DNA of 64,000 nucleotides from a virus: positions 22,622 to 86,621 of IMG/VR virus record IMGVR_UViG_3300031236_000004; one strand, 5' to 3'. The position numbers and the translations under genes are program-made. Within the stretch, counting starts at the first letter, position 1. Every line of letters starts with the position of its first letter. Below, in pieces: positions 8,157 to 62,680 of the stretch. The notes beneath the pieces are model-generated. The model searched no databases. It worked only from the letters and a program-made list of their open reading frames with translations, and was not told where the DNA came from.

Positions 8157-8593
8157 GCGTCGCGTGCTGGTACGGCCCGTCGTCGGCCCTCGAGCTTCAG
8201 ACCCTGCAGCCCATTCCGACGTACGCCCTCGAGCAGCTGCGGCAGCGCCTGCTGTTCGCGCTCACCACGTCGAGGTCGCCGACCACGTCCGCGCGCGTGC
8301 TCCTGCAGATGGTCACGGAGACCGAGATCGGCGTCGCGCTCCAGAAGATCGTCGCGTTCCCGCCCGACGTCGCGAGCGTCGTCGTGTGCGAGCGCCGTCG
8401 CTACGTCGACGTCGACTTCGACATGCGGCTGCAGGGCTACCTGGTGAATCCGGCGCTCGCCGCGCTCGCCGGCTACGTCAGCATCCCGGCCCCGTACGTC
8501 GATCTGGTGGCCCTCTACGCCAACTCAGACTACCCGCGGTACCGCGTGAGCGCGCTCGCCGCCGCCGTCTGCATGGGAGCCGCCCTCCAGTGA
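8153..8593 (+). CDS. Small tail/baseplate protein, unknown
   Basis: 146 residues from GTG 8153, with GTGA overlaps at both ends, so translated together with its neighbours. It is hydrophobic and Ala/Val/Leu-rich near the C-terminus and has no signal peptide or clear motif. Size and position are compatible with a tail-tip adaptor, but that is inference from context only. Confidence 0.6.
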   Translation: MSVACWYGPSSALELQTLQPIPTYALEQLRQRLLFALTTSRSPTTSARVLLQMVTETEIGVALQKIVAFPPDVASVVVCERRRYVDVDFDMRLQGYLVNPALAALAGYVSIPAPYVDLVALYANSDYPRYRVSALAAAVCMGAALQ

Positions 8594-11500: not shown

Positions 11501-12162
11501 TGACGAAGCAGGTGGCGGCGACGTCGCTCGTCGCGTCGCTGCAGTCCCAGCTGGAGGCGGCGCAGGGCACCGCGGACACGTACGCGAGCCAGGGTTCGAC
11601 GGTCGCGCGGGCCGCGTACCTCGCGGCCACCCAGGACGCGGCCGACCTGCGGACCCAGATCCTGGGCGCGCAGGCGCAGCTGACGTCCATCAACGTGCAG
11701 ATCGCGGCCGCGACCACGACGCTCCAGGCGCAGACGGGAACCCCCGGCGTGCCGCGGGTGCTGCACAACCTCGACGACGCGGCCGCGCGCCCGCTCGTCC
11801 CGCTTCCAGCCACGCAGACGCTGTTCGACAGCTACGACGCCGCGACGGCCTACAACTGGCGGCCGATCTGCACGCTCGACGAGTACGTCATCTTCTACGA
11901 CGTCGCGGGCGTCGGCGCGATCCCCGCGTACGGCCACCCGCGCAGCGTCGGCGCGCGCTACTTCGACCGCATCCGCACGCTCACGCCGCCGCCGGCTCCG
12001 GTGAACGGCGTGCCCTTCGCGCCGCCGCCCGGGTCCGACGGCACGACGACGACCGCGGTACCGGGCCTCAACCAGGCATTTCCCCAGGTCGCCGCGGATT
12101 GGGACGCGCAGCTGCTCGCGTACAAGAACAACGTGCTCAACGTGAAGGCCCCCCGCACGTGA
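8590..12162 (+). CDS. Baseplate hub protein with lytic transglycosylase domain
   Basis: 1190 residues from GTG 8590. The first 330 or so residues resemble a tail-hub fold by general character, not by motif. At about 540-690 there is an SLT-type lysozyme-like domain: the catalytic Glu is Glu567 in WVNMESGG, followed by the DGSIGYFQLNN pattern that matches the G-Y/L-x-Q part of the family. Pro/Ala-rich linkers flank the domain. Residues after about 780 form another structural region with an Ala/Gln coiled stretch. Such hubs (compare T4 gp5 and gp27) puncture the envelope and cut peptidoglycan during infection. Overlaps both neighbours as GTGA. Confidence 0.75.
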   Translation: MTASPSRSTFASSAPHQAAFIVYINGLEVPAKSVSMRFGVWVTPEMQVEMVADPVLIRLGNEDRVQVAVFYLDDCAVDPSVQPEFRLFGEGEITGWGYRNTSGGRSIVFTVVNQIAIFTQLFVQFMTTLDDMVGHSAAIDSTTKISVPSSELVFPFALFQQGLLPTQGQKNSLITRPFDFLYNAVRWMMDSVVPADQRTVPAANFFTRWARLTNFHNRFAGCPSFDATSNASVFPVLQALQSTSAIDAVIKNLIPNVQNTGSIWDMLQLVFQTMLMEIAMIPGMPLVSVSLATGMVLQTDFSSHQLVLSDVFTSGPGIPPPVNTPAYTALGAGARGQWVPTVSDAARATQPLRMQNYFPKPQMLFSIPPSCNVIFPSQLKTIAYEENYATQPTRLYLNDEVLTQIVKAPQSGLTQSIENALTIAYPPLADQILQSALKQPIYHAKNFLLYPEEFFKGPVMDRRTAPPWLFFLKQNEVTQVTAPADNAAPPNPATPAQTGNQAPPRPGSVAPGVMVTQSNAGVAGAGPGGRRQYDPATEALRPKIQALIGTGYNAIPLDFALCWVNMESGGSIKSTDPSDGSIGYFQLNNAERPSLRSAAFPEGVTSAQVLALNSNLSDFNPATNTAITSGLAFIAQLRPRANALAKQFGLNWSEGDMWRLTKAFHAGIGFWGGTTSGYPGFFAIAKQALGGPAPDWSSLFNAVLPTLTPGGQLHRALMNATACGGVIATASGTMITKEDPRPFTAPSATPSPPAPSVATSAPPAPPAPADAAPVVDATTQAAVATFTEDVYHLYAKYEYFRERYARRSGSATVAWNPYVVPGFPGAIFDQRASRVDLMVYITGVQLSMSHAGQRSTTLSFLYGRQFQEMFEQLATEFAQNDATARGSGPQEPIRAISNIVQSFPQAETFYQQLFYGGQSLFGKAASFDFRAVVGLESTVPGGSPEPIFVDGPDSATQDGNIAAAQTISTLLTKQVAATSLVASLQSQLEAAQGTADTYASQGSTVARAAYLAATQDAADLRTQILGAQAQLTSINVQIAAATTTLQAQTGTPGVPRVLHNLDDAAARPLVPLPATQTLFDSYDAATAYNWRPICTLDEYVIFYDVAGVGAIPAYGHPRSVGARYFDRIRTLTPPPAPVNGVPFAPPPGSDGTTTTAVPGLNQAFPQVAADWDAQLLAYKNNVLNVKAPRT

Positions 12163-12917
12163 CGAGCCTGGCTGCCATCGCGAAGCTCGCAGCGACGAGC
12201 CGGCAGACGTCGGACCTCGAGGCGTGGCACGCCTGGAAGGCGAAGCCGACGGACGCCAACGCGAGCGCGCTGCTCGCGCAGGTCTCCCCGCTCATCCACC
12301 GCGAGGCCAACAAGTGGGCGGGCTCGCTCGCGAGGCCCCTGCTCGAGACGGAGGGCAAGCGCCTGGCGATGCAGGCGTTCCACAGCTACGACCCCGGCAA
12401 GGGCGCCGCCCTGGGGACGCACGTCGTCAACTCGCTGCAGCGGATGTCCCGGCTGTCGTACGCGAACCAGAACGTCGCCCGGCTGCCCGAGAACAAGATG
12501 CTGCTGTACCACGGCTTCAACGTGGCCCACTCGGAACTGTCCGACGCGCTGGGCCGCGCTCCGACGGCCGACGAACTGGCCGATCGGCTCGCGTGGCCCG
12601 TCGACAAGGTCGCGGAGTACCGCAAGTCGATCGGTCGGCGCGAGATGCTCGAGTCCGGCGGCCTGTTCGAGGGCAGCGACGCCGGGCTCTACGACGCGGA
12701 CAAGTCGGACCACGTCGTCGACTTCATCCACCACGACCTGCCGCCGCCGCAGAAGGCGATCTTCGAGCATTTGACAGGCTACGGAGGGGCTGACGTCCTG
12801 TCGAACCAGGAGATCCAGAAGAAGCTCGGCCTGACGCAGGGGCAGTACTCGCACCTCAAGGGCAAGCTCGTCGCGCGCGTCGAGGCGCTGACCGCCGGGG
12901 GCAGCCGTGGCGGGTAG
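12159..12917 (+). CDS. Sigma-70-like protein inside the tail operon
   Basis: 252 residues from GTG 12159. Residues about 20-110 resemble sigma region 2, but weakly. LGRAPTADELADRL at about 130-145 is the typical region 3 helix of FliA/WhiG-type sigma factors, and LSNQEIQKKLGLTQGQYSHL near 215-235 is a region 4 helix-turn-helix. It would recruit an RNA polymerase to phage promoters. It starts on the hub gene stop (GTGA) and its end overlaps the next gene by 11 bases, so it is made together with virion proteins. Whether it is packaged in the virion is unknown. Confidence 0.68.
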   Translation: MTSLAAIAKLAATSRQTSDLEAWHAWKAKPTDANASALLAQVSPLIHREANKWAGSLARPLLETEGKRLAMQAFHSYDPGKGAALGTHVVNSLQRMSRLSYANQNVARLPENKMLLYHGFNVAHSELSDALGRAPTADELADRLAWPVDKVAEYRKSIGRREMLESGGLFEGSDAGLYDADKSDHVVDFIHHDLPPPQKAIFEHLTGYGGADVLSNQEIQKKLGLTQGQYSHLKGKLVARVEALTAGGSRGG

Positions 12918-16438: not shown

Positions 16439-16444
16439 GCGCCC

Positions 16445-18874: not shown

Positions 18875-18892
18875 AATTCGGAGGCCCTCCAC

Positions 18893-19435: not shown

Positions 19436-19436
19436 C

Positions 19437-20000: not shown

Positions 20001-20012
20001 CGGAGAACGCAC

Positions 20013-27900: not shown

Positions 27901-28046
27901 TCGGCGTCGGCCGCGCCCTCCACCTCGAGCCACGCCTTGCGCACCGCGCTCTCGATCTTCCCGACGTCGAACGGTTGTGTGGTCCTGCCGTCCCGCTTGC
28001 GAACCGTGGTGGGCTGAACGACGGGAATATCGAACGACGATTGCAT
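24909..28046 (-). CDS. nrdJ: Class II ribonucleotide reductase, N-terminal half (with inteins 1 and 2), ending at an in-frame TAG
   Basis: 1045 codons from ATG 28046 (AGGAG ten bases upstream). An ATP-cone begins the protein (RKRDGRTTQPFDVGKI, 17-32). CGCGVGYSV at 218-226 and the spliced NP-CGEINL motif mark a reductase of the monomeric, adenosylcobalamin-dependent type; the Cys of CGEI is the expected thiyl-radical residue and its Glu the expected base. Translation stops at TAG 24909-24911 in the middle of the catalytic domain, while the same frame continues with the missing part. A sequencing error, readthrough, a split enzyme or a dead gene are all possible. Confidence 0.85.
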   Translation of the reverse strand: MQSSFDIPVVQPTTVRKRDGRTTQPFDVGKIESAVRKAWLEVEGAADAEEVHRVVSFVAATLPADVADVEQIQDLVEVALMRAKKFAVAKAYIIYRQMRSEARRERLRPNSLAVSDYIHASKYARYLPDEQRREVYDETVARVEAMHLRRFAHLPEARLAEIRRAFDLVRDKRVLPSMRSMQFGGPAVEAVHCRQYNCSATLVDRPRAFAEAMYLLLCGCGVGYSVQYEHVEKLPPIADVDSKKVVHHVIEDTIEGWANALDALVSGFIGGYHVEFAYHLIRRAGSPLKTSGGRAPGHLKLKLALERVREVLAGAQGRQLRPIEAHRVMCHAADAVLSGGIRRCLPAGTLVHLTRGLVPIEAVRAGDAARTAAGWSRVTDVIEQGTQQLVEVTTQMGPFRCTANHRVAVLTSTAAYEWKTAGSLKPGDRMVFVDHVVEGHTTSLPPWSYERSPHDHTSVDIHVPDLDEEIAWFLGYLHGNGYVHVNRTSTEGGSNCVSFSMNEQDEETPERVRRLRAVLARMGVSCSDVKLEGEETRRVSAAGKQLALYCENFKQPKVPLHVPACVLEGLPVIRGAYLAGLLDSDGGADNRPLLLLSSVYPDFVRQVRAVYASLGIVTRMKLNRPEQGTWQALWHLTLVGELPRRAFDARVAPHAVKRAPARTGTQFDYGYPREFILGEDVNYNTKWSPVSAQMTAGTAERCGVDRRGLMPIAVIEVKQGVGTSATFDLTIERDHEFVAEGLLVHNSAMICLFSLEDSELMNVKADRSWFNKEPWLANANNSVVLKRDEAKEKQFKRIFGMTRHYGEPGVLFVNDYDHVTNPCQPGWATVLTPDGIRTFDDVGVGSTIWSGVRWTKITHKVLTGVKPVFGYHTQAGVFFGTENHRVMVHGKRVEVREARSIDRALYPNQDGRSTHEIECRTTMGDHSVYDITVEAEEHTYWTGGLLVSNCGEINLQPVLEHANETRSTGWAMCNLTEINAARLTSFEDFREAAWAATVIGTLQATYTDMPYLGKVTEAIVRRDALLGVGMTGMQDAPHVACNPAF
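25200..25580 (-). mobile_element. Mini-intein 2 in the reductase, at the catalytic cysteine
   Basis: 127 residues, Cys823 to Asn949, inserted between NP and CGEINL. It has the N-terminal splicing block (CQPGWATVLTPDG), block B (GTENHRVMV) and the C-terminal block (HTYWTGGLLVSN), but no endonuclease domain. The residue before the last Asn is Ser instead of the usual His. The +1 extein residue is the predicted active-site cysteine, so the enzyme cannot work until splicing is complete. Confidence 0.88.
25809..27017 (-). mobile_element. Intein 1 in the reductase, with LAGLIDADG endonuclease
   Basis: 403 residues, Cys344 to Asn746, inserted in GGIRR-SAMICLF, a conserved substrate-site segment of reductases. 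Start Cys, end His-Asn before Ser. Block B is RCTANHRVAVL. The endonuclease helices are WFLGYLHGNGYV and YLAGLLDSDGG, both with the acidic residue kept, so it may still be active. Lower GC than the extein. Confidence 0.9.
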
Positions 28047-36359: not shown

Positions 36360-39110
36360 GTGGCGGAAGCAGTCTACAGGTCGACGATCGCGCAGGGGTT
36401 GTTCTACGTGGACGGCAAGCCCCTGTCGCTCGCGGACTACCCGATGTTCGAGGCCGTGTACGACGGCCAGTACTCGCGCATCCTGCTCAAGACTGCACGT
36501 CAAGTTTCCAAAAGTACGACGCTCGCCGCCTTCATGATCGCGGAGGCCATCGCGGTCGTCCCGTTCAAGTCGTACTACGTCTCACCCACGCAGGAGCAGA
36601 CCCGGAAGTTCTCGCACACGCGCGCTGCGAAGATCCTGGCGTACAGCCCAGACGTGCGGAAGAAGTACATCGGCCCGGAGTCCATCGACAACGTCTACCT
36701 GCGCATACTCAAGAACGGCTCGGAGATGGCGTTCACGTACGCCATGGACGACCCGGACAGGGCGCGCGGCTACTCGGCGGACCGAACGTGTTTCGACGCG
36801 ACTGCCGAAGTCCTCACGCGCGTGGGTTGGAAGCTCGTGCGCGCCTTGACGCCGACCGACGAGGTCGGGGTGCTCGCACCGGACGGCGCGCTCGAGTGGC
36901 ACCGACCCACGCGACTCATTCAGTTCCGCCACAAAGGCTCGATGGTTTGCTTCACCCACCACGGCGTTTCACTTCGAGTGACCTCCAACCACAAGATGTG
37001 GGTGAACTTTAGAGTCAAGACCTCACCTACCTTCAAGACGCCAGATGTTTGGGAGTTCGTTGAAGCGGGGTCTCTGGCGAACACGACGCGCATGGGCTTC
37101 AAGTTCACGGGTCGCGCTGTCCTGCGCGGGAGTCAGGTGCCGCAGGTTAAGGTGCTCGAGGGCGGGGAAGGCTATGAAGTAAGTCGGCGTTCGCTCTCGA
37201 TCCCATTTCTGGAATTCGCCGAGTTGGTGGGTTGGTACCTCTCCGAGGGCTCGATCGTCTGGAAGATGCTCAACGGTCGTCGCCAAGCGCGCGGCGGCGC
37301 AGGTGTGTTCTCGAACGGGTTCGCACCGCGCCGCGCGCCGAAGGGCGTCTCGATCGTGCAATGTCCGGGACCCCATGCAGACCGCATCAAGCGGTGCCTC
37401 CGTGCCTGCGGCCTCGTGTTTTCTGCACACCCAACTGAATACCAAACCAGCAGGGGCGCACGCCTCACGCACGCGTACGTCGTCACATCCGCACAGCTCG
37501 GCAGCTACTTCGAGGGGCAGGGGCTCTGCCGGGATAAGCACATTCCAGAAGAGTTCTTTGAACATCCAGCCGCACTGACGCGGCTGTTGGAGAGCCTTCA
37601 CTTCGGAGATGCGACCATGCGCGATGGGACACTGCGCACGCGTTCGAAGCGTCTGGCGGATGACGTCCACCGCGCGTGGACCCTGCTCGGGCGGTCTTCT
37701 GCCATCCACACGCGAATGATGGCGCCGCGCCCCGGCGCTCCTTTGGAGCCTCTGTACGAGGTTCAGGCCTTCAAATACGACTACCACGTGTTCTGGCGGC
37801 CCGAATTCGAGTCGAAGAAGCGCGTCGTCGTAGAACAGGTTGTAGACGAGGACGTCTTCTGCTTCACCGTCAAACACCATCGTCCGATCGTGCGCGGCGG
37901 ATTTGGACAGAGACCTATCGTTACGGGTCAGTGCTTCGACGAAGTGCAGGACATGGTCTTCGAGGCGGTCATCCCAGTCATCGAGGAGTGCATGGCGGCG
38001 TCGAAGTATCAGTACTCCTCGTACTGCGGCACGCCCAAGACGATGGAGAACACCATCGAGGTCCTGTGGGGGCTCTCGTCGCAGACCGAGTGGTGCATGC
38101 GGTGCGACGCGTGCTCGAAGTGGACGTTCGTCGCGAGCACGAAGGCGATCGGGAAGAAGGGGCTCATCTGCCTCTCGTGCGGCGGCCTCCTGAATCCGCG
38201 CAACGGCAAGTGGATCGACATGGCGAGCGGCCAGGGCATCAAGGGCTTCCACATCAGCCAGGCGATCATGCCGACGAACGTACCGGCCGCGTGGCAGCCG
38301 GGGACGGAGGGGTACGACGTCGCCGTCGACCGCTGGGAGAAGCTGCTCTACAAGATGGAGTCGCCGCTCTACGGCGAGTCCAAGTTCCTCAACGAGTGCA
38401 TCGGCGTCAGCACGTCGACCGGCGTCCGCCTCCTCACCAAGGAGATCCTCGAGGCCCTCTGCGACGACAAGCTCGCCATCACGCGGCTGCCGACCCCGAC
38501 CTCGCTCCAGGGCATCGTCCGCGTCGTCGCCGGCGTCGACTGGTCCGGCGGCGGCGGCGAGGTCAAGGGCAGCGAGGGCCTCTACAAGTCCCGCACGGTG
38601 TTCCACGTCTGGGGTCAGCAGCCGGACGGCAGGCTCCGCACGCTCACCTCGAAGGTCTTCCCCAACGGGCATGCCACCGGCTGGATCGACGAGATCGTCG
38701 AGTTGTGCAACGCCTGGGGCGTTCAGATGGTCGGCTGCGACGCCGGTGAGGGCGCGCTCGCCAACTCGTTCCTGCGCCAGCGCCTCGGCGACCAGCGGGT
38801 CCTCGCGTTCAAGTACCAGATGATGTCGAAGCCGCTCGAGTGGAACCCCGCCGCGCTGACGTACAACGTCGACAAGACCACGATGGTCGACACCTACGCG
38901 CGCATGCTGCTCCACAAGCAGGTCGTCTACCCGAACCTCCGGGACGCGAAGGTGGCCATCGACGACATCCTCAACGTCTACGAGGAGATCACGCCGAGGG
39001 GCATGAGGGTCTGGAAGCACTCGCCGGTGATGCCTGACGACAGTCTTCACGCCCAAATTTTCGCGTGGTTAGCCTGGGGCGTGCTGTCGGGGAACCTGAA
39101 GTTCAACTAG
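36360..39110 (+). CDS. terL: Large terminase subunit (with intein)
   Basis: 916 codons from GTG 36360; 535 residues remain after removal of a 381-residue intein. The P-loop-like RQVSKSTT is at 47-54 and the Walker B acidic pair appears after splicing as CFDEVQDM. A zinc-ribbon CMRCDACSKW ... CLSCGG lies beyond it. VAGVDWSGGG and VGCDAGEG carry the acidic residues expected of the RNase H-like nuclease. The protein pumps and cuts DNA into the procapsid at the portal. Its end overlaps the convergent exonuclease gene by four bases. Confidence 0.88.
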   Translation: MAEAVYRSTIAQGLFYVDGKPLSLADYPMFEAVYDGQYSRILLKTARQVSKSTTLAAFMIAEAIAVVPFKSYYVSPTQEQTRKFSHTRAAKILAYSPDVRKKYIGPESIDNVYLRILKNGSEMAFTYAMDDPDRARGYSADRTCFDATAEVLTRVGWKLVRALTPTDEVGVLAPDGALEWHRPTRLIQFRHKGSMVCFTHHGVSLRVTSNHKMWVNFRVKTSPTFKTPDVWEFVEAGSLANTTRMGFKFTGRAVLRGSQVPQVKVLEGGEGYEVSRRSLSIPFLEFAELVGWYLSEGSIVWKMLNGRRQARGGAGVFSNGFAPRRAPKGVSIVQCPGPHADRIKRCLRACGLVFSAHPTEYQTSRGARLTHAYVVTSAQLGSYFEGQGLCRDKHIPEEFFEHPAALTRLLESLHFGDATMRDGTLRTRSKRLADDVHRAWTLLGRSSAIHTRMMAPRPGAPLEPLYEVQAFKYDYHVFWRPEFESKKRVVVEQVVDEDVFCFTVKHHRPIVRGGFGQRPIVTGQCFDEVQDMVFEAVIPVIEECMAASKYQYSSYCGTPKTMENTIEVLWGLSSQTEWCMRCDACSKWTFVASTKAIGKKGLICLSCGGLLNPRNGKWIDMASGQGIKGFHISQAIMPTNVPAAWQPGTEGYDVAVDRWEKLLYKMESPLYGESKFLNECIGVSTSTGVRLLTKEILEALCDDKLAITRLPTPTSLQGIVRVVAGVDWSGGGGEVKGSEGLYKSRTVFHVWGQQPDGRLRTLTSKVFPNGHATGWIDEIVELCNAWGVQMVGCDAGEGALANSFLRQRLGDQRVLAFKYQMMSKPLEWNPAALTYNVDKTTMVDTYARMLLHKQVVYPNLRDAKVAIDDILNVYEEITPRGMRVWKHSPVMPDDSLHAQIFAWLAWGVLSGNLKFN
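36789..37931 (+). mobile_element. Intein in the terminase, at the Walker B motif
   Basis: 381 residues, Cys144 to Gln524 of the open frame, between DRT and CFDEVQDM. It begins CFDATAEVLTRVGWK, has block B (VTSNHKMWV), and ends IVTGQ before Cys, with Gln in the place of the usual final Asn. The endonuclease part shows LVGWYLSEGSIVW, but the second helix, LLESLHFGDATM, is changed, so nuclease activity is in doubt. Much AT-richer than the extein. Confidence 0.88.
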
Positions 39111-49409: not shown

Positions 49410-49448
49410 TAGACGGTAGTCTAACTACGCGATAGGTTGTGTCTACGC

Positions 49449-50534
49449 ATGCACACGAAAGCTCCGCGTACCTCGGCCACGTACTACGCCGACATCGCCC
49501 GTACGCTGCTGGTCGACGACCCGGCGGAAGAGCGGAAGCTGCTGCGGCGCTGGCAGGCGCGGGGCGACGTGGCCGCCCGCGACGCCATCGTCAAGACGCA
49601 CCTCCGCTTCGTCGTGAAGATGGCGCACAAGCGCACCAAGGACCCAGAGGCGGTCAAGGACTACATCGCGGCGGGCAACCTGGGCCTCCTCAAGGCGGCC
49701 GACAAGTTCGACTGCGAGCGCAAGCCGTACATCCGCTTCCTGACCTACGCGGGCTGGTGGGTCTACGAGGAGATGTCCAATCAAGACTACACCATGGCCT
49801 CGCTCGTCCACGTGCCGGCGCACCGGCACAAGACGCAGCGGCGCCAGGCGCGCGAGTTCCGCGCCGCGCTGCAGGAGTACGGGCCCGACAAGGTCGCCGA
49901 GCACGCCGGCGACGCCGTCGAGCGGCTGGTCGAGCTGCGCGCCCAGGCCAAGAAGGCCCAGGGCCCCGCGCTGCGGCGCGTCGAGAAGCAGATCCGCTTC
50001 TACGAGGCGATCCAGGAGCCCGGCCTTCCCGAGGGCGTCGTCACCACGATCGACGCGGTGCGCAACGCGCCCGACCTCCCCGAGACCGAGCCCGCCGTCA
50101 GCTACGACGCGGAGCGGCTGCGCGGCACGGTGCGCCAGGCCATCGCGCGGCTGCCGCTGCGCGAGCAGACCGTCCTGAACCAGTGCTTCGGGGTCAAGGA
50201 CGAGCCGCGCAACCTCGTCCAGATCGCGGCGATGATGGGCGTGTGCTCAGAGCAGGTGCGCCTGCTCAAGATCCGGGGCATGCGCCTGCTCCACCGCGAA
50301 CTGGTGCTCGGCGCGGTGTCGAGCCTCCCGCTCCTCGAGCGGACGGTGATCGAGCGGAGCTTCGGGCCCGAGGGCGAGCCGCAGACCGCCGAGACCGTGG
50401 CCGGCGACATGAAGTTGACCGTCGCGTGCGTGCGGCGCATCCAGCAGGCGAGCATGCGACTCCTGCAGTCGGAGCTGCACTCGCGCGTAGGGATGTCGAT
50501 CGAGCCGCTGGCGGCGATGACCGCGGCGACCTAG
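49449..50534 (+). CDS. Sigma-70-family factor with two region 4-like domains
   Basis: 361 residues from ATG 49449. Region 2 (about 30-115) is clear: HLRFVVKMAHKR, YIAAGNLGLLKAADKFD and FLTYAGWWVYEEM. The C-terminus has two successive helix-turn-helix units of the region 4 kind, LPLREQTVLNQCFG...IAAMMGVCSEQVRLL and LPLLERTVIERSFG...VAGDMKLTVACVRRI, roughly 237-290 and 295-345, each about 55 residues. They look like a tandem duplication. It would direct an RNA polymerase to phage promoters; the second copy may read an extra element or bind a partner. Confidence 0.82.
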   Translation: MHTKAPRTSATYYADIARTLLVDDPAEERKLLRRWQARGDVAARDAIVKTHLRFVVKMAHKRTKDPEAVKDYIAAGNLGLLKAADKFDCERKPYIRFLTYAGWWVYEEMSNQDYTMASLVHVPAHRHKTQRRQAREFRAALQEYGPDKVAEHAGDAVERLVELRAQAKKAQGPALRRVEKQIRFYEAIQEPGLPEGVVTTIDAVRNAPDLPETEPAVSYDAERLRGTVRQAIARLPLREQTVLNQCFGVKDEPRNLVQIAAMMGVCSEQVRLLKIRGMRLLHRELVLGAVSSLPLLERTVIERSFGPEGEPQTAETVAGDMKLTVACVRRIQQASMRLLQSELHSRVGMSIEPLAAMTAAT

Positions 50535-53702: not shown

Positions 53703-54076
53703 CGGAACTCCTCCGGCGGGTCATAGGACTCGCCGTCTAGCAGGGTACGCTCGGGCGATTGAAACTTGCCCTCGGTGGTCTTCTCGAGGTGCTTGGACGC
53801 GCGGAAGATGTCGGACATGTCGACGGGCTCGGCGCCGCCCTCGATCGCGGTGAGCGCGGGGGGCGGGCGCGCCGCCGGCGGCTGATCGACCGCGGGGGCC
53901 GGCGGCGGCGGCGCCGCGACTGGCGGCTCGTCCCCGGGCTGGACCTCGACGCGCACGGTCACGTCGCCCTTGGGGCACTTGACGTCCGCGTCGGCGGCGG
54001 CGATGCCCTGTCGGGCGAGGTCCTGTCGGATGAGCCGAACGACGTCGGCGGGTTCGTACGTGACGACGATCTTCAC
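53699..54076 (-). CDS. Unknown protein with Pro-rich linker
   Basis: 125 residues from GTG 54076, coupled by GTGA to the SNF2 helicase gene and by ATGA to the nuclease gene. A compact N-terminal part (about 1-55) is followed by a Pro/Ala-rich linker and an acidic tail with PVDMSDIFRASKHLE. It probably links or regulates the two neighbouring enzymes, but that is inference. Confidence 0.6.
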   Translation of the reverse strand: MKIVVTYEPADVVRLIRQDLARQGIAAADADVKCPKGDVTVRVEVQPGDEPPVAAPPPPAPAVDQPPAARPPPALTAIEGGAEPVDMSDIFRASKHLEKTTEGKFQSPERTLLDGESYDPPEEFR

Positions 54077-56058
54077 GGGACTCCTCGCTGCAGCGAGCGC
54101 GCCTTGATGACGGGCCTCGCCACCGTCTTGGGGTAGATGCACCCCGGCCTGAACGGCTCGATGCCGTTCTTGAGGCAGTTGACGCTGTGCGGGCACAGCG
54201 CGCACTCGATCTTGTTGGCCAGCAGCACGTCCACGTCCACCTTGTGGTCCAGCAGGTGCGCTACCGCGGCTTCCAGCGTGCGCCTGCCGATCATGCGATA
54301 CACCGTGACCGGGTTATCCTGCCCGAGCCGGTAGTTCCGGTCCAGGCTCTGCGAGTACTGCGTCAGCGAATACGGCAGCGACCCGTATATGGCGTACGTC
54401 GCGGCGACCAGGTTGATGCCGACGCCTGACGCGACCTGCCCGACGTACACCCGCGTGTGCGGGTCGTCGTTGAACTGGTCGATCTGCTCCATCGGCCTGC
54501 GCGTGTCGCCGTCGACGCGCACGTGTCCGATGCCTGCGCGGGTCAACCGCCCGACGATCGAGTCCATCTCCGGGTGGAACACGCACCACACGATGACCTT
54601 GGCGCCCGGGACCACGACGATGTTGTCGACCAGCTCCATGATCGCGTCGTGCTTGGGGTTGTCGTCGGAGAAGATCGTCTCCGTCGGCCAGGGGGACTGG
54701 ATCACCTTGCAGCGGCGGGTGTGCGGCTTGACGTCGTCGACCACGCAGTCGCGGACGTGCTCGCAGGGCTGGCCGCCGCGCGCGGTGTCGCAGAAGTTCG
54801 GATCGACGACGTTGTTGATGACGAAGCCGGACGTGATCTGCAGAAGCTTGAGCAGGGCGGCGGCGCGGTGCGGCAGCGCGATCTCAGGCGGCAGGTCCAG
54901 CAGGGCCGGCAAGAGCCCGGGGGCGCGCTCCGGGTCGTCGCGGATGCCGAGCGCGAAGGCCTGCAGCTCGTCCGGGCTGATGCCCATCGTCTCGACGACC
55001 TGGTTGTAGAGGGCGGTCTGGGAGGCCGAGAGCGCGTAGTCGACGTCGACGAAGGTCCGCTTCGGCAGGTCCAGGCACTGCTCCTTGGTGCGGCGGAGGC
55101 TCAGGAACGTGGTCCGGGCGTTGATCACGTCGAGGTTCTTGAACCCCGTGACGACGTGGGACCGCGGTGACGGCCGCTTCGTGAAGAGCCGCTCGTACCT
55201 GAAGTAGGGCTCCGGCATGAAGCAGTCACCCAGGATCTTGTAGGGGGCGTAGACGTTGCGCGGGTCGCCCTCGGTCGGGGAGCCCGTCATCAGCACCCGC
55301 CGCTGGGCCTTCTGGGCGATCTCCCAGACGCCCTTGGTCCGGTCGGACGACCAGGCGTTGACGTTGTGGCTCTCGTCGCAGACCAGCAGCGCGTAGGGGA
55401 GCCGCTCGACCAGCGAATCCACTATCCTTTTGGCAGTGTCGTACGTGACCAAGACGACGTCGGCCCGCTCCGCGACCGCGCGGTCGAGGGCCGCGTACTT
55501 CTGCGCGCGCGAGCCCATCAGGGCGACCCACGAGAGCTGCCCGCCCGAGTGCTTGTCGATCTCCCGCCCCCAGTTCTCGACGGTGATGCGCGGCCCCAGG
55601 ACGAGCGCGCAGCCGTGAGCGCCGACGCGCCGCAGCAAGCGGATGAGGTCGATGGCGATCTTCGACTTGCCCGTGCCGGGATCGAAGTAGAGCGCGGACC
55701 TCGAGTAGTAGAAGGTGTGGCAGAGCCCCTCGACCTGGTGGTCGCGCGGCCGGGTGACGTACTCGAAGCCGGCCGGCAGTCGTCGGTCGGTCAGCGCGGC
55801 GCGGTCGCGCGCGAGGGCCTCGACGTGCTGCCGAGCGACGTCGGACAGCGACACGTCCAACTCGCCCGAGAGCACGTCGAAGTCGGACAGCACCTTGTCG
55901 GAGGCCGGCAGGAACGCCGGGTACATCCACAGGGCCCGCTCGGGATCCCACGTCGCGCCGAAGATCCGCTGGTGGTCGAGCGTCTGACCCGGAATGAGGA
56001 ACACCGGGGTGCCGTTTCCCGCTCGGCCTACGCGCACTTCCATCCGGTATCGGGCCAT
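54073..56058 (-). CDS. SNF2-family helicase/translocase
   Basis: 661 residues from ATG 56058 (AAAGG nine bases before it). Walker A DPGTGKS is at about 126-132, the DESH box in LVCDESHN follows, then TGSPT and the motif VI region SLDRNYRLGQDNPV. Two cysteine clusters (FCDTARGGQPCEHVRDC with RRC downstream, and ECALCPHSVNC at the end) may bind zinc or iron-sulphur. SNF2 proteins move along DNA and strip other proteins. Divergent from the portal gene with 55 bases between. Confidence 0.85.
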   Translation of the reverse strand: MARYRMEVRVGRAGNGTPVFLIPGQTLDHQRIFGATWDPERALWMYPAFLPASDKVLSDFDVLSGELDVSLSDVARQHVEALARDRAALTDRRLPAGFEYVTRPRDHQVEGLCHTFYYSRSALYFDPGTGKSKIAIDLIRLLRRVGAHGCALVLGPRITVENWGREIDKHSGGQLSWVALMGSRAQKYAALDRAVAERADVVLVTYDTAKRIVDSLVERLPYALLVCDESHNVNAWSSDRTKGVWEIAQKAQRRVLMTGSPTEGDPRNVYAPYKILGDCFMPEPYFRYERLFTKRPSPRSHVVTGFKNLDVINARTTFLSLRRTKEQCLDLPKRTFVDVDYALSASQTALYNQVVETMGISPDELQAFALGIRDDPERAPGLLPALLDLPPEIALPHRAAALLKLLQITSGFVINNVVDPNFCDTARGGQPCEHVRDCVVDDVKPHTRRCKVIQSPWPTETIFSDDNPKHDAIMELVDNIVVVPGAKVIVWCVFHPEMDSIVGRLTRAGIGHVRVDGDTRRPMEQIDQFNDDPHTRVYVGQVASGVGINLVAATYAIYGSLPYSLTQYSQSLDRNYRLGQDNPVTVYRMIGRRTLEAAVAHLLDHKVDVDVLLANKIECALCPHSVNCLKNGIEPFRPGCIYPKTVARPVIKARSLQRGVP

Positions 56059-56113
56059 GTGACCATGCCTTTCTATCACGACGCGTCACGACATGTTTGC
56101 GAGGTAAACCCCG

Positions 56114-57919
56114 ATGCCTGATGGAATGCTCGACCTCGACGTCGCCAGCCTGTCGTCGCACAACACCGCCTCGCAGGGCAGCCCGCTCTTCGACTTCCTC
56201 ACCGCGTTCGCGCCCAGGAAGCTGAAGGACCTCTTCCGCCTGTGCGAGTACCTCTACTTCAACAGCGCCCAGATCTACGCGGCGCTGCAGAAGTTCTGCA
56301 CGTACCCCGTCACGAGCATCGTCTACGAGACGCAGAACGAGTCGCTCAAGCAGTTCTACAAGGACCTGCACGAGAAGACGCTCAAGACGCTGCGGATCCT
56401 CATCCGCGCGGCCGTCGACAAGTTCGTCTACGGCAATGGCTTCTTCTCGATGTACGCGCCGTTCGTGCGCTTCCTGAAGTGCCCGCGCTGCGCCGCGCTC
56501 ACCAACATCCACCAGGTGACCTACCGCTTCAAGCTCAAGAAGTTGACGTTCAACTACGAGTGCGGCGGCTGCAGCGCGCGCGTCGACGCCGGCGAGAAGG
56601 ACGTCATCGACCGCAAGATCACGCGCAAGGACCGGATCGCGGTCATCCGCTGGGACCCGAAGCTGATGGACATCGACTACAACCCCATCACCGGGCACAG
56701 CGAGTACTTCTACACGATCCCCAAGGAGCTGAAGGAGCGCTGCGCCAAGGGCAACAAGCACCTCGTCGACACGATGCCGATGGAGTTCCTCAAGGCGATC
56801 CGCGACGACAAGATCTTCAAGTTCGCCGAGGGTCAGATCCTCCACATGCGCATGGACGCGCCCGCGGGCATCGAGGCCCAGTGGGGCTTCCCGCCGCTCG
56901 CGTCGACCATCAAGTTGTTCTTCTACGCGGCGGTCCTGCGCAAGGCGAACGAGGCCATCGCACTGGACTACGTCGTCCCGCTCCGCATCATCTCGCCCAA
57001 GCAGTCGTCAGCCAACGCGGATCCGATGACCACCATCAACCTGTCGAAGTGGTCGGCGCAGATGAAGGAGAGCGTCAAGAAGTGGCGCCGCGACCCGCTC
57101 CACATCATGTGGTCGCCGGTCCCGGCCGAGGTCACGCACCTCGGAGGGCAGGCGCGTGCCCTGATGACGCTCGGCGAGGTGCAGGCGGCCGAGGACAACA
57201 TCATCGCGGCCCTGGGCCTGCCCAAGGAGTTCATCTACGGCGGCTTCTCGGCGATGGGCTCGGGCATCCAGCTCCGCGTCCTCGAGAACCAGCTCGTCCA
57301 CCAGACCGGCGACCTCAACGACCTGCTGCAGTGGATCACGGACAAGTCGGCCAAGCAGCTCGGTCGCGGGACCATCCAGGTCTCGCTCGCGCCGTTCCGC
57401 TTCATCGACGACGTCCAGCAGAAGGCGCTGCTGCTCCAGCTCAACGTCGCCGACCCGACGTCCGGGCCGTGGCTCTCCCAGCGCACGCTCGGCGAGGCGT
57501 TCGACGTCGACCCGGCCGAGGAGCGCAAGTGGCGCAAGCAGGAGGCCCTCGAGCAGGCCCGCGTGCAGCAGGAGCTGCAGATCGAGCTGACCAAGCGCCA
57601 GAACTCGCTCGCCTCGCAGGCCCGCGCGCAGGCGCAGCAGGGTCAGCAGGGCCTGTCCTACGACCAGCAGGCGGTGATCGGCCAGGCCGACCAGGTCGTG
57701 CAGCAGATGCAGGGCCTCGACCCCGGGTCCCGCCAGTCCCAGATGCACGCGCTGCAGTCCGAGGACTTCGTCATGTGGGCCGTGGTCTCCGCGCGCCTGA
57801 AGCTGCAGGAGACGCAGATGAACCACGAGGCGATCGCGCAGATGCGCCAGGGCGGGGGCGCGGGCGGCGACCCGAGCGGCGGCGGCGGCGGCGAGGGCGC
57901 GCCCCCGATGGCCGCCTGA
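56114..57919 (+). CDS. Portal protein
   Basis: 601 residues from ATG 56114 with a GAGG ribosome binding site. The early KDLFRLCEYLYFNSAQIYAAL helix, WDPKLMDIDY, the conserved LGLPKEFIYGG and the basic/Gln-rich helical C-terminus fit a phage portal ring subunit. Between about 120 and 160 there is an insert with two CxxC pairs (CPRC and CGGC), a zinc ribbon not usual in portals. The portal is where DNA enters the capsid and where terminase docks. First gene of the plus-strand block that includes the RNA polymerase. Confidence 0.82.
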   Translation: MPDGMLDLDVASLSSHNTASQGSPLFDFLTAFAPRKLKDLFRLCEYLYFNSAQIYAALQKFCTYPVTSIVYETQNESLKQFYKDLHEKTLKTLRILIRAAVDKFVYGNGFFSMYAPFVRFLKCPRCAALTNIHQVTYRFKLKKLTFNYECGGCSARVDAGEKDVIDRKITRKDRIAVIRWDPKLMDIDYNPITGHSEYFYTIPKELKERCAKGNKHLVDTMPMEFLKAIRDDKIFKFAEGQILHMRMDAPAGIEAQWGFPPLASTIKLFFYAAVLRKANEAIALDYVVPLRIISPKQSSANADPMTTINLSKWSAQMKESVKKWRRDPLHIMWSPVPAEVTHLGGQARALMTLGEVQAAEDNIIAALGLPKEFIYGGFSAMGSGIQLRVLENQLVHQTGDLNDLLQWITDKSAKQLGRGTIQVSLAPFRFIDDVQQKALLLQLNVADPTSGPWLSQRTLGEAFDVDPAEERKWRKQEALEQARVQQELQIELTKRQNSLASQARAQAQQGQQGLSYDQQAVIGQADQVVQQMQGLDPGSRQSQMHALQSEDFVMWAVVSARLKLQETQMNHEAIAQMRQGGGAGGDPSGGGGGEGAPPMAA

Positions 57920-57931: not shown

Positions 57932-58309
57932 ATGGATGAGCAAGACGACTTCGTCGGAGCCCTCGCCCGCGCCCAGCGCCTGTCGGGCGACGGCGGCACC
58001 ATGTTCGGGCCCGACGGCCCGGGCCGCGTGGCCTTCGAGGGCGACCCGCGCAAGGTGGGGCCCGACCTGGAGCACGACGCCCACGTCGGGGTCTTCACGA
58101 TGCCGACCGACCGGGGCGAGTACGAGGACGTCCTCAACGAGGTCATCCGCGGCGAGGCGGTCCTCCGCTACGAGGAGAAGACCTTCACCAAGGACGGCGA
58201 CTTCATCGTGGCGATCTGCTGGATGACCCCGCGCGTGCGGGCGGCGCCGGCGCCCGGGCAGGACGCGGGCGACGCGGAGGCGCCCGTGCTGCCGCGAAGG
58301 ATCCCGTAG
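57932..58309 (+). CDS. Unknown small protein
   Basis: 125 residues from ATG 57932. Mixed acidic sequence with a beta-rich middle, and an Ala/Pro-rich tail. No family recognised. Twelve bases after the portal and 24 before the polymerase, so probably co-expressed with both. Confidence 0.58.
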   Translation: MDEQDDFVGALARAQRLSGDGGTMFGPDGPGRVAFEGDPRKVGPDLEHDAHVGVFTMPTDRGEYEDVLNEVIRGEAVLRYEEKTFTKDGDFIVAICWMTPRVRAAPAPGQDAGDAEAPVLPRRIP

Positions 58310-58333: not shown

Positions 58334-61300
58334 ATGAATCTCCGGCCGGTCATCGAAGACGCAGCGACTCGCCGCGAGGCCATCCGCCGAAAGGCGACGG
58401 AGGCCCTCGAGCAGGTCTTCCCGCTCAAGGCGGGCAAGCACGCGCTCGAACTGACCAACGTCCGCGTCGAGCCGAGGGAGTTCTCGTCTCGCGAGCAGAA
58501 GCTGGCCGTCCTCGAGGGTCGGACGCTCTCCGAGCGAGTGCGCGGCGACCTCGTAGCCAAGGACGCGGCGGGCCAGCAGGTCAGCGCAGCGAAGGACTTC
58601 ACGCTGATGCAGCTGCCGTACTTCACCCCGCGGCACACGTTCATCGTCGACGGCACGGAGTACTCGGTCGCCAACCAGCTGCGTACCAAGCCCGGCGCCT
58701 ACGTCCGCCGGCGTGGCAACGAGGAGCTGGAGGCGACGTTCAACCTCGCCAAGGGCGCCAACTTCCGCGTGTCGATGGACGCCGAAAAGGGCCTGCTGTA
58801 CATGCAGCCTTCGCACGGGACGTCCAAGATCCCGCTGCACCCGGTGCTCCGCGCGCTCGGCGTGCCCCAGCAGGACATCGCGGCTGCGTGGGGTCAGGAG
58901 CTGGCGGGCCTCAACCGGGACGCGTGGAAGTCGCCAGACAAGCACGTCGACAAGCTGTACTCGACGCAGGTCCACCCCGCGAAGCAGACGGCGGCGACGA
59001 CGGACGAGAAGGCGCGCGTGCTGCGCGAGTACTTCGACAACACCGTCATGGACCCGGAGGTGTGCGTCAAGACGCTCGGCTACCCGTTCGACAAGGCGTC
59101 GCCGGCGGCGGTGCTCGCGGCCTCGAAGAAGCTCCTCGACGTCCACCGCGCGGCCGCCGACGTGGACGACCGAGACTCGCTCGCGTTCAAGACGCTCCAC
59201 TCCGTCGACGACTTCGTCAAGGAGCGCATCCAGCTCGGGGCGCGCGCCATGAAGGCCAAGCTCGGGTGGAAGCTGGACGCGGCGCGCGGCGACGTCAGGA
59301 AGGCGATGCCGGCGGGCCCGTTCACGGGGGCGGTGCGGGGCCTGCTCACCGGGACGTCGCTGTCGTCCGTCCCGATGCAGATCAACCCGATGGAGCTGCT
59401 GGACCAGGCATCGAAGGTCACGATGCTCGGCGAGGGCGCGATCCCGTCGGAGCGGGCCATCCCGCTCGAGGCGCGCGACGTCCACCCGACGCACATGGGG
59501 ATCCTCGATCCGGCCCGGTCGCCCGAGTCGTTCTCAATTGGCGTCGACCTGCGAGCGGCCATCGGGGCCCGCCGCGACGATCGCGGCAACCTCTACGCGC
59601 CCGTGCGCGACGTCAAGACCGGCAGGTCGACGCACCTCGCGGCCGCCGACATGGAGAAGTCGGTCATCGCGTTCCCGGGCGAGAAGGTGGAAGCCGGGCG
59701 GCTCGTCGACGCGATGAACCGAGGCAAGGTCGAGCGCGTCAACGCGGCCGACGTGACGCACCAGATCGAGCACGTCCACGACCTCTACGGGCCGACGTCG
59801 AACCTGCTGCCGCTCATCTACGGCATCCAGGGCAACCGCGTGCTGATGGCGTCAAAGCACCAGGGTCAGGCGCTGCCGCTCGTCCACCGCGAGGCGCCGC
59901 TGGTGCAGGTCGAGTCGTGGAAGCCCGGCGTGTCGGTCGAGCGAGAGATGGTCAAGCAGATCGTCCCGACCGCGCGCGAGGCGGGCGTGGTGACGAAGAT
60001 CGACGAGGACTTCGTGCACCTCGGGCCATCCGAGAAGGCCGCGGCCGCCCCCTCGAAGCTCCACTACGATCAGGACTTCCCCCTCGCCGCCAAGACCGCG
60101 CTCCACAACACGCTGACGGTCAAGGTCGGCGATCGCGTCGAGGCGGGTCAGCCGCTCGCGGAGAGCAACTTCACCAGGGACGGCGCGTTGGCGCTCGGGA
60201 CGAACCTCCGCGTGGGCTACGTGAGCTACCGCGGGCTCAACGCCAACGACGGCATCGTCGTCTCGCAGGGCGCGGCCGACAAGCTGATCAGCGAGCACAT
60301 GTACCAGCACGGCGTCTCGCGCGACGGCGGCGCCGAGATCGGTCGCGAGAAGCACCGGGCCTACTTCGGCGGCAAGTACGCCGCGTCGCAGTACGCCAAC
60401 CTCGACGAGGACGGCGTGGTCAAGCCGGGCGTCGTTCTCCGGCACGGCGACCCGATCGCGGTCGGCGTCCGCGAGAACAAGGCCACCGGCGACGCGGCGC
60501 TGCTCGGCAAGCTCTCCAAGTCGCTCGTGAAGCCCTACGAGGAGGTGGTCGAGCGCTGGGAGCACGACAACCCGGGGACCGTGGTCGACGTGGCGAAGAC
60601 CGGGGACCGCGTCGCGGCGTCGGTCAGGACGACGGAGTCACTGAACATCGGCGACAAGCTGACCGGCAGGTACGGGAACAAGGGGGTCATCGCCAAGATC
60701 GTCCCCGACGACCAGATGATCCGCGACGAGCACGGCCGCCCGCTCGACCTGCTGTTCACGTCGGCTGGCGTCGTCTCGCGCATCAACCCGGGACAGATCG
60801 TCGAGAGCGCGCTGGGCAAGGTCGCGGAGAAGACGGGCAAGCCGATCATCCTCCCCCAGTACGTGCCCGGGCGAGACAACGTCGAGTACGCCAAGAAGCT
60901 GCTCGCTGAGCACGGCCTGTCGGACAAGGAGACCGTGCACGACCCGGTCACGCGGCGGGACATCCCGAACGTGATGGTCGGCAAGAGCTACATCCTGAAG
61001 CTGATGAAGACGGCGGACTCGAACTGGAGCGCGCACGGGAGCGAGCGCTACGACTTCAACCAGCAGCCAGGACGCGGCGGCGACGAGGGCGCGAAGGGGA
61101 TCGGGCGCATGGAGTTCGACGGGCTGGTGTCGCACAACGCCCGCAACATCCTGCGCGAGGCTGCGTCGATCAAGAGCCAGCGGAACGACGAGTTCTGGCG
61201 AGCGGTGCAGCTCGGGCTCCCGACGCCCGCGCCGAAGACGCCGTTCGCGTACGACAAGCTGCTGTCGATGCTCACCGGCGCGGGCGTCAAGGTCGACAAG

Positions 61301-62680
61301 AGCGGCTCGCGGCTGGCCCTCGGGCCGCTGACCGACGCGGACGTGGCGAAGATGTCGTCCGGCGCGCTCCAGGACCCGAGCAAGCTCATCCGGGCCAAGG
61401 ACCTGCGCCCGGAGACCGGCGGCCTGTTCGACCCCGGCGTCACCGGCGGCATGTCCGGCACGAAGTGGTCGCACGTCGACCTGCACGAGCCGATCGTCAA
61501 CCCGGTGTTCGAGGAGCCGGTCCGCCGCCTGCTCGGGCTGACGCAGAAGGAGTTCAGCGAGCGCGTCGGCCGCGGCGGCGAGTGGTTCAAGAAGGCGCTC
61601 GACGAGATCGACGTCGACGACAAACTCGCCGAGCTGCGGGTGGAGTCGCGCCGCGCGCGCGGACCAGCACTCGACGGCGTCGTCAAGCAGGTGAAGTACC
61701 TCGAGGCGCTGCGCGACCGGAAGCTCAAGCCGAGCGACGCGTACGTCCTCTCGAAGGTCCCCGTCACGCCCCCGGTCATCCGGCCGATCCTGCCGCTCAA
61801 GGACGGGCGCCTCCAGGTCGGCGACGCGAACCTGCTCTACAAGGACGCCTTCCTCGCCAGCGACCAGCTGCGCGAGGCCTCGAAGTCGCTGCCGGAGTCG
61901 GAGCTGGCCGACCCCCGCCGCCACCTCTACGACGCCGTCGGCGCGCTGTTCGGCGTCGGCGAGCCCGTGAGCCCGACCGCCGAGCGGCGAGGCACCAAGG
62001 GCTACCTCGCGGCCATCGCCGGGACGCGGCCGGGCTCGGGATTCTTCCAGGGGAAGATCCTCAAGCGCCAGCAGGACGTCAGCGGCCGCGCGACCGCGGC
62101 GCCAGACCCGACGCTCTCATTGGACGAGGTGGGCGTCCCGGAGGAGATGCTGTTCAAGATGTACGGGAAGTTCGTCATCGGACGCCTCGTACGCCGCGGG
62201 TACAACGCGACGGACGCGCAGAAGCTAGTCGACGATCGCGCGCCCATCGCACGCGATGAACTGATCAACGAATCCCGCGAGCGTCCCGTCTTGCTCAACC
62301 GTGCTCCCAGCCTCCACAAATTCAACATCATTGCCGCATACCCGAAGATGGTCGACGGCAAGACGCTCAAGACAAATCCGTTCATGGAGAAGGGGAGCAA
62401 CCTGGACTACGACGGAGACGCCCTGCAGGTGCACGCACCGGTCACTCCGGGCGGCATCGAGGACGCGAAGAAGATGACGCTGTCGCACCTCATCTTCGCG
62501 GACAAGCGACCCGGCGTGCTGAACGTGGCGCCGGAGCAGGACAGCGTGCTCGGGCTGCACCGCGCCACGCGAGCGCCGTCGAACGCCAAGACGCGCCACT
62601 TCGGATCGCAGGAGGACGCGCTGGCGGCCTACCACCGCGGAGACATCGCGCTGAACGACCCGATCGAGATCAGGCGCTGA
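58334..62680 (+). CDS. RNA polymerase beta fused to the N-terminal half of beta-prime
   Basis: 1448 residues from ATG 58334 with AAGGAAAG upstream. Beta marks: PYFTPRHTFIVDGTEY, HPTHMGILDPARSPESF (385-401), ALALGTNLRVGYVSYRGLN, GDKLTGRYGNKGVIAKIVP (about 773-791) and YDFNQQPGRGG near 900. After a linker at about 955-997 come beta-prime marks: GGLFDPGVTGG, KDGRLQVGDANLLY, GKILKRQQDVSGRA, RPVLLNRAPSLHKF and the catalytic loop NLDYDGD with Asp1358, 1360 and 1362. The protein ends about 80 residues later, so bridge helix and trigger loop are missing and must be in another gene. Nothing in the window supplies them. Confidence 0.92.
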   Translation: MNLRPVIEDAATRREAIRRKATEALEQVFPLKAGKHALELTNVRVEPREFSSREQKLAVLEGRTLSERVRGDLVAKDAAGQQVSAAKDFTLMQLPYFTPRHTFIVDGTEYSVANQLRTKPGAYVRRRGNEELEATFNLAKGANFRVSMDAEKGLLYMQPSHGTSKIPLHPVLRALGVPQQDIAAAWGQELAGLNRDAWKSPDKHVDKLYSTQVHPAKQTAATTDEKARVLREYFDNTVMDPEVCVKTLGYPFDKASPAAVLAASKKLLDVHRAAADVDDRDSLAFKTLHSVDDFVKERIQLGARAMKAKLGWKLDAARGDVRKAMPAGPFTGAVRGLLTGTSLSSVPMQINPMELLDQASKVTMLGEGAIPSERAIPLEARDVHPTHMGILDPARSPESFSIGVDLRAAIGARRDDRGNLYAPVRDVKTGRSTHLAAADMEKSVIAFPGEKVEAGRLVDAMNRGKVERVNAADVTHQIEHVHDLYGPTSNLLPLIYGIQGNRVLMASKHQGQALPLVHREAPLVQVESWKPGVSVEREMVKQIVPTAREAGVVTKIDEDFVHLGPSEKAAAAPSKLHYDQDFPLAAKTALHNTLTVKVGDRVEAGQPLAESNFTRDGALALGTNLRVGYVSYRGLNANDGIVVSQGAADKLISEHMYQHGVSRDGGAEIGREKHRAYFGGKYAASQYANLDEDGVVKPGVVLRHGDPIAVGVRENKATGDAALLGKLSKSLVKPYEEVVERWEHDNPGTVVDVAKTGDRVAASVRTTESLNIGDKLTGRYGNKGVIAKIVPDDQMIRDEHGRPLDLLFTSAGVVSRINPGQIVESALGKVAEKTGKPIILPQYVPGRDNVEYAKKLLAEHGLSDKETVHDPVTRRDIPNVMVGKSYILKLMKTADSNWSAHGSERYDFNQQPGRGGDEGAKGIGRMEFDGLVSHNARNILREAASIKSQRNDEFWRAVQLGLPTPAPKTPFAYDKLLSMLTGAGVKVDKSGSRLALGPLTDADVAKMSSGALQDPSKLIRAKDLRPETGGLFDPGVTGGMSGTKWSHVDLHEPIVNPVFEEPVRRLLGLTQKEFSERVGRGGEWFKKALDEIDVDDKLAELRVESRRARGPALDGVVKQVKYLEALRDRKLKPSDAYVLSKVPVTPPVIRPILPLKDGRLQVGDANLLYKDAFLASDQLREASKSLPESELADPRRHLYDAVGALFGVGEPVSPTAERRGTKGYLAAIAGTRPGSGFFQGKILKRQQDVSGRATAAPDPTLSLDEVGVPEEMLFKMYGKFVIGRLVRRGYNATDAQKLVDDRAPIARDELINESRERPVLLNRAPSLHKFNIIAAYPKMVDGKTLKTNPFMEKGSNLDYDGDALQVHAPVTPGGIEDAKKMTLSHLIFADKRPGVLNVAPEQDSVLGLHRATRAPSNAKTRHFGSQEDALAAYHRGDIALNDPIEIRR

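Follow-up and report, generated by a model that had tools for sequence, protein, structure and literature searches.

The gene at positions 58334..62680 (+ strand) of the window, a stretch of 64,000 nucleotides from a viral record in IMG/VR, encodes a 1448-residue protein in which a whole RNA polymerase beta subunit is followed, in one chain, by the N-terminal part of beta-prime. Pfam, phmmer and alignment identify this fusion, which is unbroken in 69 non-redundant loci. The protein would be the larger chain of a complete predicted core, composed of beta-beta-primeN and a separate beta-primeC. Since both chains of the same enzyme and a phage sigma factor are present in virions of Salmonella phage Arash, this RNA polymerase very probably depends on sigma and is packaged; the virion data come from Arash only. 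A two-chain core that travels in the capsid together with a sigma factor, and that arose by fusion and then fission, is the best explanation as a whole, with high confidence. The direct support for it consists of the homology of all parts, the catalytic residues, the co-inheritance of the chains and the presence of the enzyme in the Arash virion.

The fusion gene and its partner

The open reading frame begins at an ATG preceded by AAGGA. Its Pfam domains run in the order Rpb2_2, Rpb2_3, Rpb2_6 (3e-39), Rpb1_1, Rpb1_2 (2e-18). A phmmer comparison with the PDB assigns residues 90-1009 to bacterial beta (7.6e-62) and residues 1077-1447 to beta-prime (1e-47). The beta module (residues 1-986; 58334..61291, +) reaches the last residues of bacterial beta, its C-terminal profile extending to residue 1382/1384 of Salmonella beta. 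The junction, at about residues 986-994 (61289..61315, +), is a very short linker, and the end of the beta profile is the start of the beta-prime N-terminal profile. The beta-prime N module (residues 994-1448; 61313..62677, +) consists of the clamp and the DxDxD barrel, covered by Rpb1_1 and Rpb1_2, and terminates at about residue 551 of E. coli beta-prime. The first-pass annotation had read this frame as all of beta followed by the first half of beta-prime; the domain order, the phmmer matches and the nearly linkerless junction all bear that reading out.

Both catalytic barrels are intact, and beta is whole within the chain. The beta catalytic lysines K775 and K783 (GDK..GNKG; 60656..60682, +), beta-prime R1323 and the three aspartates D1358/D1360/D1362 of the DYDGD metal-binding loop (62405..62419, +) are invariant in an eight-member alignment, so the loop is intact, as had been claimed. 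Both modules are trimmed relative to E. coli, and beta-prime lacks the cysteines of its N-terminal zinc ribbon. The frame stops 86 residues after the DxDxD motif (the earlier figure of about 80 was fair), short of the bridge helix. It has no beta-primeC part and hence is not a whole beta-beta-prime chain.

Compared with three relatives, dN/dS is 0.17-0.21 for the complete gene, 0.10-0.13 over the junction and 0.15-0.19 over beta-prime N. Because these values are low in all three, the frame is not a product of chance. No stop or frameshift occurs in the fusion across relatives, a check that the annotation had proposed. A structure model of residues 574-1448 (pLDDT 82, pTM 0.67) gives a good match for the beta-prime half only (cyanobacterial gamma, target TM 0.53), so no inference is drawn from it on the packing of the two barrels.

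The remainder of beta-prime is found in a gene of about 600 residues that contains the bridge helix, the trigger loop and a second zinc site. This beta-primeC gene lies 3' of the fusion in 57 relatives, always on the same strand, after a gap of 460-5,874 bases. Its profile and predicted fold (pLDDT 85) resemble bacterial beta-prime, and its zinc cysteines C209/C258/C265/C268 are near-invariant. In E. coli numbering the two halves adjoin at beta-prime 551/573, before the bridge helix, where the cut had been put on first reading. Searches with PF04998 and Arash Gp216 did not find beta-primeC in the 86.6-kb contig to which the window belongs. The contig is a fragment that ends too early, 1.3 kb after the fusion; in the closest relatives, L018 and L020, beta-primeC starts 1.4 kb past it. 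The annotation's prediction of a separate gene outside the window thus agrees with both the contig and the relatives. Three relatives (L022, L028 and L031) have a C-terminal extension of beta-primeC, whose identification as the Gp217 helicase was rejected for want of any similarity or Pfam match.

Neighbouring genes and virion evidence

The portal gene (56114..57919, +; 31% to Arash portal Gp204, 8e-84) lies two genes 5' of the fusion. A small conserved gene fills the interval (57932..58309, +; 71% in L018 and L020). On the other strand, an SF2 helicase (54073..56079, -; PHROG DNA helicase, 2e-82) keeps conserved synteny beside the portal and the fusion. The window also encodes two sigma factors. 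One is a sigma-like protein of 252 residues (12159..12917, +), the orthologue of virion-packaged Arash Gp10 (37% identity, 9e-35); such an orthologue is present in all eight records searched, the window among them. The other has 365 residues (49437..50534, +), with sigma70 regions 2 and 4 (Pfam 6e-9 and 2e-13; PDB SigA/RpoS, 8e-20); it occupies the position of Arash Gp196 and matches the gp196 region. Region 2 of sigma70 was found in 9/9 records and was recognised in only one of nine one-chain genomes (a class described below), so that sigma dependence may not extend across the family. One beta was found per record, and a single polymerase set per genome. The alpha subunit (PF01193) was not found in 18 records, some of which may be incomplete, with 13 of 14 controls positive; the phage enzyme could use host alpha.

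The same two-chain enzyme occurs, unrecognised, in Arash (gp206/gp216, OQ632216) and in Vibrio phage D69. In Arash virions, Gp206 is the most-detected protein, above the major capsid protein, with 3516 spectra, 100% coverage and 128 peptides (PMC10585845). The same study reports 1210 spectra for Gp216, 467 for the sigma factor Gp10 and 1148 for the helicase Gp217. Roughly, this corresponds to 2.3 spectra per residue for Gp206, 2.0 for Gp216, 2.0 for Gp10 and 2.4 for Gp217.

In the proposed mechanism, beta-primeC, encoded just beyond the contig end, would dock on the fusion and bring the bridge helix, trigger loop, second zinc site and remainder of beta-prime. The enzyme would travel in the capsid with a Gp10-type sigma and, once injected, would transcribe early genes; at a later stage it is probably redirected by the second sigma. 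A covalent link between beta and beta-prime may aid assembly where a phage alpha is lacking. Functional assembly of a fused E. coli beta-beta-prime is described in work cited in PMC1750930.

Architectures and history of the family

About 100 loci were compared. They include one-chain enzymes, two-chain enzymes such as that of the window and three-chain enzymes, together with genes split by a homing endonuclease. The one-chain enzymes, with about 2,000-2,170 residues, contain whole beta-beta-prime; this form is found in 10 relatives, L125 and L144 among the class. In every architecture the beta/beta-prime junction is unbroken. The trees of beta, beta-prime N and beta-prime C agree and give the same five groups, so the chains do not fall into unrelated families, the second check that had been suggested. 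The one-chain class is sister to all multi-chain classes (97/99), and the phage clade is separate from 11 bacterial rows (100 support). The root is placed by a bacterial outgroup, in which beta-prime is unsplit, on a long branch and without bootstrap. Some apparent phage matches (OR84xxxx, CAKLQH, AFYI) are bacterial-looking rpoB/rpoC contigs and were used as outgroups only; ribosomal genes are annotated beside some of them. A search for prophage copies across bacterial genomes yielded no more than two partial loci, L080 and L081.

Several other readings of the gene structures were discarded. The insertions of about 1 kb in some relatives were considered as introns, but those in L015-L027, L018-L020 and L030 are in-frame inteins, and insertions of about 0.3-0.5 kb represent a GNAT domain. 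The three-chain class is not a sequencing frameshift, for it forms one clade and some of its members have a gene in the gap.

By parsimony on these sequences, the family would have undergone one fusion and then successive splits. Neighbouring beta and beta-prime genes would have fused to form a single chain of about 2,100 residues, which would then have been cut once at the border between barrel and bridge helix to give the two-chain form. The opposite history, in which beta-prime was split first, beta was next fused to beta-primeN and the one-chain forms were later re-fused, is unlikely. The tree alone is compatible with re-fusion, since it shows the one-chain enzymes as a sister clade of the multi-chain ones, and the cyanobacterial gamma/beta-prime split indicates that such splits can precede fusion. 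However, this history needs three events (split, fusion and re-fusion) rather than two. In addition, the border between beta-primeN and beta-primeC is continuous in the one-chain forms and homologous with bacteria, and the unsplit beta-prime of the bacterial outgroups argues against an early split.

As to its role, the enzyme might instead be a non-virion polymerase for middle and late genes that enters virions as carry-over only; the authors of the Arash study consider carry-over of abundant proteins possible, and the 116 proteins that they detected in the particles include replication enzymes (PMC10585845). This is quite unlikely, given that the fusion exceeds even the major capsid protein in detection, that a single polymerase set was found per genome and that the fusion gene adjoins the portal in the structural gene cluster. 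That the fusion is instead a catalytically incomplete decoy, which lacks a beta-primeC partner in this phage and binds DNA or pieces of the host polymerase, is hardly credible. A record of 86.6 kb without beta-primeC would fit a decoy, but the contig ends before the point at which the partner begins in L018 and L020. The partner's presence in 57 relatives, the invariant catalytic residues and a dN/dS of about 0.2 also count against it.

A broader model can be offered tentatively for the packaged two-chain enzyme and its relatives. The large phage family would possess an alpha-free, sigma-dependent virion polymerase, whose one chain was cut stepwise to two and three while mobile elements invaded and sometimes split the gene. 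The junction would have been kept as a substitute for the alpha platform, and the enzyme would be injected pre-assembled with its own sigma.

Comparison with known polymerases

The origin of multi-chain phage RNA polymerases is an open question, and intron mobility, cyanobacterial descent and pre-cellular ancestry have been proposed as causes of splitting (PMC7598289, PMC7824862). The series of one-, two- and three-chain enzymes within one phage family is new. With all three versions on a single tree, and with inteins and a homing endonuclease in the gene, both the direction and the route of splitting become testable. The core is compact and bacterial-like, with about 2,050 residues in total. 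It has a sigma of its own and apparently lacks alpha, and its presence in a cultured Salmonella phage makes it immediately accessible to biochemistry and cryo-EM.

The split had been described as one not recognised from known phages. This holds for the combination with a whole, fused beta, but not for the beta-prime break itself: splits after the DxDxD barrel have been described in phiKZ-type vRNAP and nvRNAP and in cyanobacteria (PMC7598289). Since the break falls in this known inter-domain region, novelty is confined to the combination and the series. The fusion was also already deposited in cultured-phage genomes, although unrecognised there. Arash Gp206/Gp216 and Vibrio phages D69, D181 and D148 have the same fusion, with about 36-37% identity to the window, the downstream beta-primeC, the synteny of portal and helicase and a phage sigma, and are labelled plain beta and beta-prime, or hypothetical. 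Arash and D69 have the fusion in one uninterrupted frame, like the window, whereas in D181 and D148 a homing-endonuclease gene interrupts beta.

The phiKZ and AR9 enzymes are likewise packaged, multi-chain and without alpha, with beta-prime split after the DxDxD barrel (packaging in the window phage being deduced from Arash). They differ in that beta is also split, two enzyme sets are present and there is no sigma; in the window family beta is undivided and fused, a single set is found and sigma genes are present. In cyanobacteria the gamma/beta-prime split likewise separates the DxDxD barrel from the bridge helix, but it lies about 50 residues beyond the window break at approximately E. coli 551-573, and gamma is not fused to beta. 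The fused rpoB-rpoC of Helicobacter, as cited in PMC1750930, joins beta and beta-prime end to end like the one-chain relatives. In contrast, beta-prime is cut in the window, cellular fusions retain alpha, and the phage chain is far shorter.

The single-chain polymerases of crAssphage and YonO also resemble the one-chain relatives in having both barrels in one phage chain. The crAssphage enzyme has no recognisable sequence homology with cellular beta/beta-prime profiles (PMC7481178), whereas the window family is strongly similar to bacterial subunits. Cellular profiles did retrieve the tailed-phage beta/beta-prime of mReC, a clade apart from cells, from sources that included IMG/VR; no fusion or split is reported there (Weinheimer and Aylward 2020, PMC7481178). 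The window family is likewise a phage clade apart from bacteria, in a tree built without mReC sequences. The mReC-type capsid PF07068 was not found in 11 records, in a search without a positive control, and the window terminase matches PF05876, not the PF03237 of mReC.

The fusion gene and its partner

The window forms the final 64 kb of its contig. The fusion gene (58334-62680, + strand) encodes 1448 amino acids. In its single frame, the Pfam domains Rpb2_2, Rpb2_3 and Rpb2_6 of the polymerase beta subunit are followed by Rpb1_1 and Rpb1_2 of beta-prime, and in sequence searches of the PDB, bacterial beta aligns with residues 90-1009 and beta-prime with 1077-1447. Both barrels keep their catalytic residues, and purifying selection acts alike on beta, the junction and the front half of beta-prime (beta-primeN). 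The first-pass annotation had read beta and beta-primeN in one open frame, which the domain order, PDB matches and catalytic residues bear out; the fusion is real and, on every test of its sequence, functional. The C-terminal beta profile stops 2 residues short of the Salmonella beta C terminus, and the profile that follows begins near the start of bacterial beta-prime. The two parts are thus joined head-to-tail, nearly without a linker, at approximately residues 986-994. Beta-prime lacks its N-terminal zinc-ribbon cysteines here.

The fusion ends at approximately E. coli beta-prime residue 551. A separate gene for the back half (beta-primeC) had been predicted outside the window. None was found in the 86,621-base contig, which ends 1.3 kb past the fusion; the relatives support the prediction. 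A gene of approximately 590-630 residues lies downstream of the fusion in the Salmonella phage Arash, the Vibrio phages D69 and D181, and IMG/VR relatives. Its product starts at approximately E. coli beta-prime residue 573 and contains the bridge helix, the trigger loop and four second-zinc-site cysteines, and the fold predicted for it (pLDDT 85) agrees with that of bacterial beta-prime chains. At the cut site the window reads ...LNDPIEIRR, beta-primeC of relatives TTLGxxLV..., and the one-chain relative L125 ...SDLVTIRGLKTTVGKLVV...; comparison with such one-chain relatives shows almost no loss of sequence where the chain is cut. In a single clade (L022:15065-18397, L028, L029, L031), beta-primeC carries a C-terminal extension of approximately 380-500 residues without a Pfam match.

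One, two and three chains

Three scans of IMG/VR and a phage collection yielded approximately 100 non-redundant loci, classed with purpose-built profiles of beta, beta-primeN and beta-primeC. The two-chain arrangement of the window occurs in 69; beta-primeC is seen in 57 of these, 460-5,874 bases downstream and always on the same strand. Ten loci are one-chain, with all three parts in a single ORF of approximately 2,000-2,170 residues, and in ten beta-primeN is itself divided, 40-70 residues from its start. In D181/D148 and L063, an HNH homing-endonuclease gene interrupts beta near profile position 414. No architecture among these loci is broken at the beta/beta-prime junction.

A tree of the three parts was rooted with 11 bacterial sequences. 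In this tree, a quick search without bootstrap and with a long outgroup branch, the one-chain loci form a group (SH-aLRT 97) whose sister group unites all multi-chain members (99), with the three-chain group nested. Separate trees of beta, beta-primeN and beta-primeC give the same five groups. Since outgroup bacteria have beta-prime unsplit, and beta and beta-prime unfused, parsimony suggests that the family ancestor was one chain, later cut; that the one-chain forms arose by later re-fusion is considered unlikely.

A beta-prime break after the DxDxD barrel has already been described in phiKZ-type phages and cyanobacteria (PMC7598289), and fused rpoBC is known from Helicobacter (PMC1750930). 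The Arash authors named the two proteins beta and beta-prime (PMC10585845). A deep clade of tailed-phage polymerases is known as mReC (PMC7481178). For phages of this kind, no description of a beta/beta-primeN fusion or of a bacterial-type polymerase in one chain was found in the open-access literature searched; the main novelty is the family-wide series of split states.

Other arrangements were also seen. Yersinia phage YerA41 has beta-primeN, beta-primeC and beta as adjacent genes in that order, Cobetia phage Carin-5 has an unsplit beta-prime adjoining beta and a sigma, and in Escherichia phage EP_H11 the beta-prime halves lie apart. The 897 kb megaplasmid NZ_CP062975 of the bacterium Pontibacillus encodes its own beta, beta-prime and alpha in neighbouring genes.

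Probable virion packaging and proposed function

In the published Arash virion proteome, no other protein was detected as strongly as the fusion (Gp206), for which there are 3516 spectra and 128 unique peptides that cover 100% of it; beta-primeC (Gp216), sigma (Gp10) and helicase (Gp217) gave 1210, 467 and 1148 spectra (PMC10585845). Crudely computed from these counts, spectra per residue are 2.3, 2.0, 2.0 and 2.4, respectively; such similar values are what a packaged complex would give. In the window, Gp10 has an orthologue (12159-12917), and a second sigma (49437-50534) contains regions 2 and 4; the gene order sigma, helicase, portal, small gene, fusion is shared with relatives. An alpha subunit was looked for in 18 records and not found. 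From these observations, it is proposed that beta-beta-primeN and beta-primeC form a virion RNA polymerase, injected with its own sigma. Once in the cell, the packaged enzyme would transcribe early genes, while the second sigma may serve later genes and the beta/beta-prime junction may stand in for alpha.

Several very long genes (up to 1332 residues) lie within 3505-12162 and 13547-22508, with no PHROG match for those scanned. The long gene just before the Gp10-like sigma has the same place as the cell-wall hydrolase Gp8 in Arash.

Inteins and other inserts

The fusions of L018/L019/L020, L015/L016/L023/L026/L027 and L030 contain in-frame inteins; taken together, these relatives have them at three conserved sites, approximately residues 399, 777 and 1043. 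The site at residue 777 lies within the catalytic GDK..GNKG active-site motif. In the window, the terminase large-subunit gene (36360-39110) contains what looks like an in-frame intein (CFDATAEVL... to GQC, approximately residues 144-520), 30% identical to the intein in the polymerase fusion of L018/L020. An ATP-cone protein, probably a ribonucleotide reductase (24909-28046, - strand), has an intein-splicing domain and a LAGLIDADG endonuclease; the adjoining gene (23031-24890, - strand) also has a LAGLIDADG domain.

Near fusion residue 570, beta of L017 (11600-12148) carries an in-frame insert that Pfam assigns to a GNAT acetyltransferase-like domain; L025, L028 and L031 have what is probably the same domain there. 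L106-L108 have an insert of similar size, and these inserts are spread over several branches.
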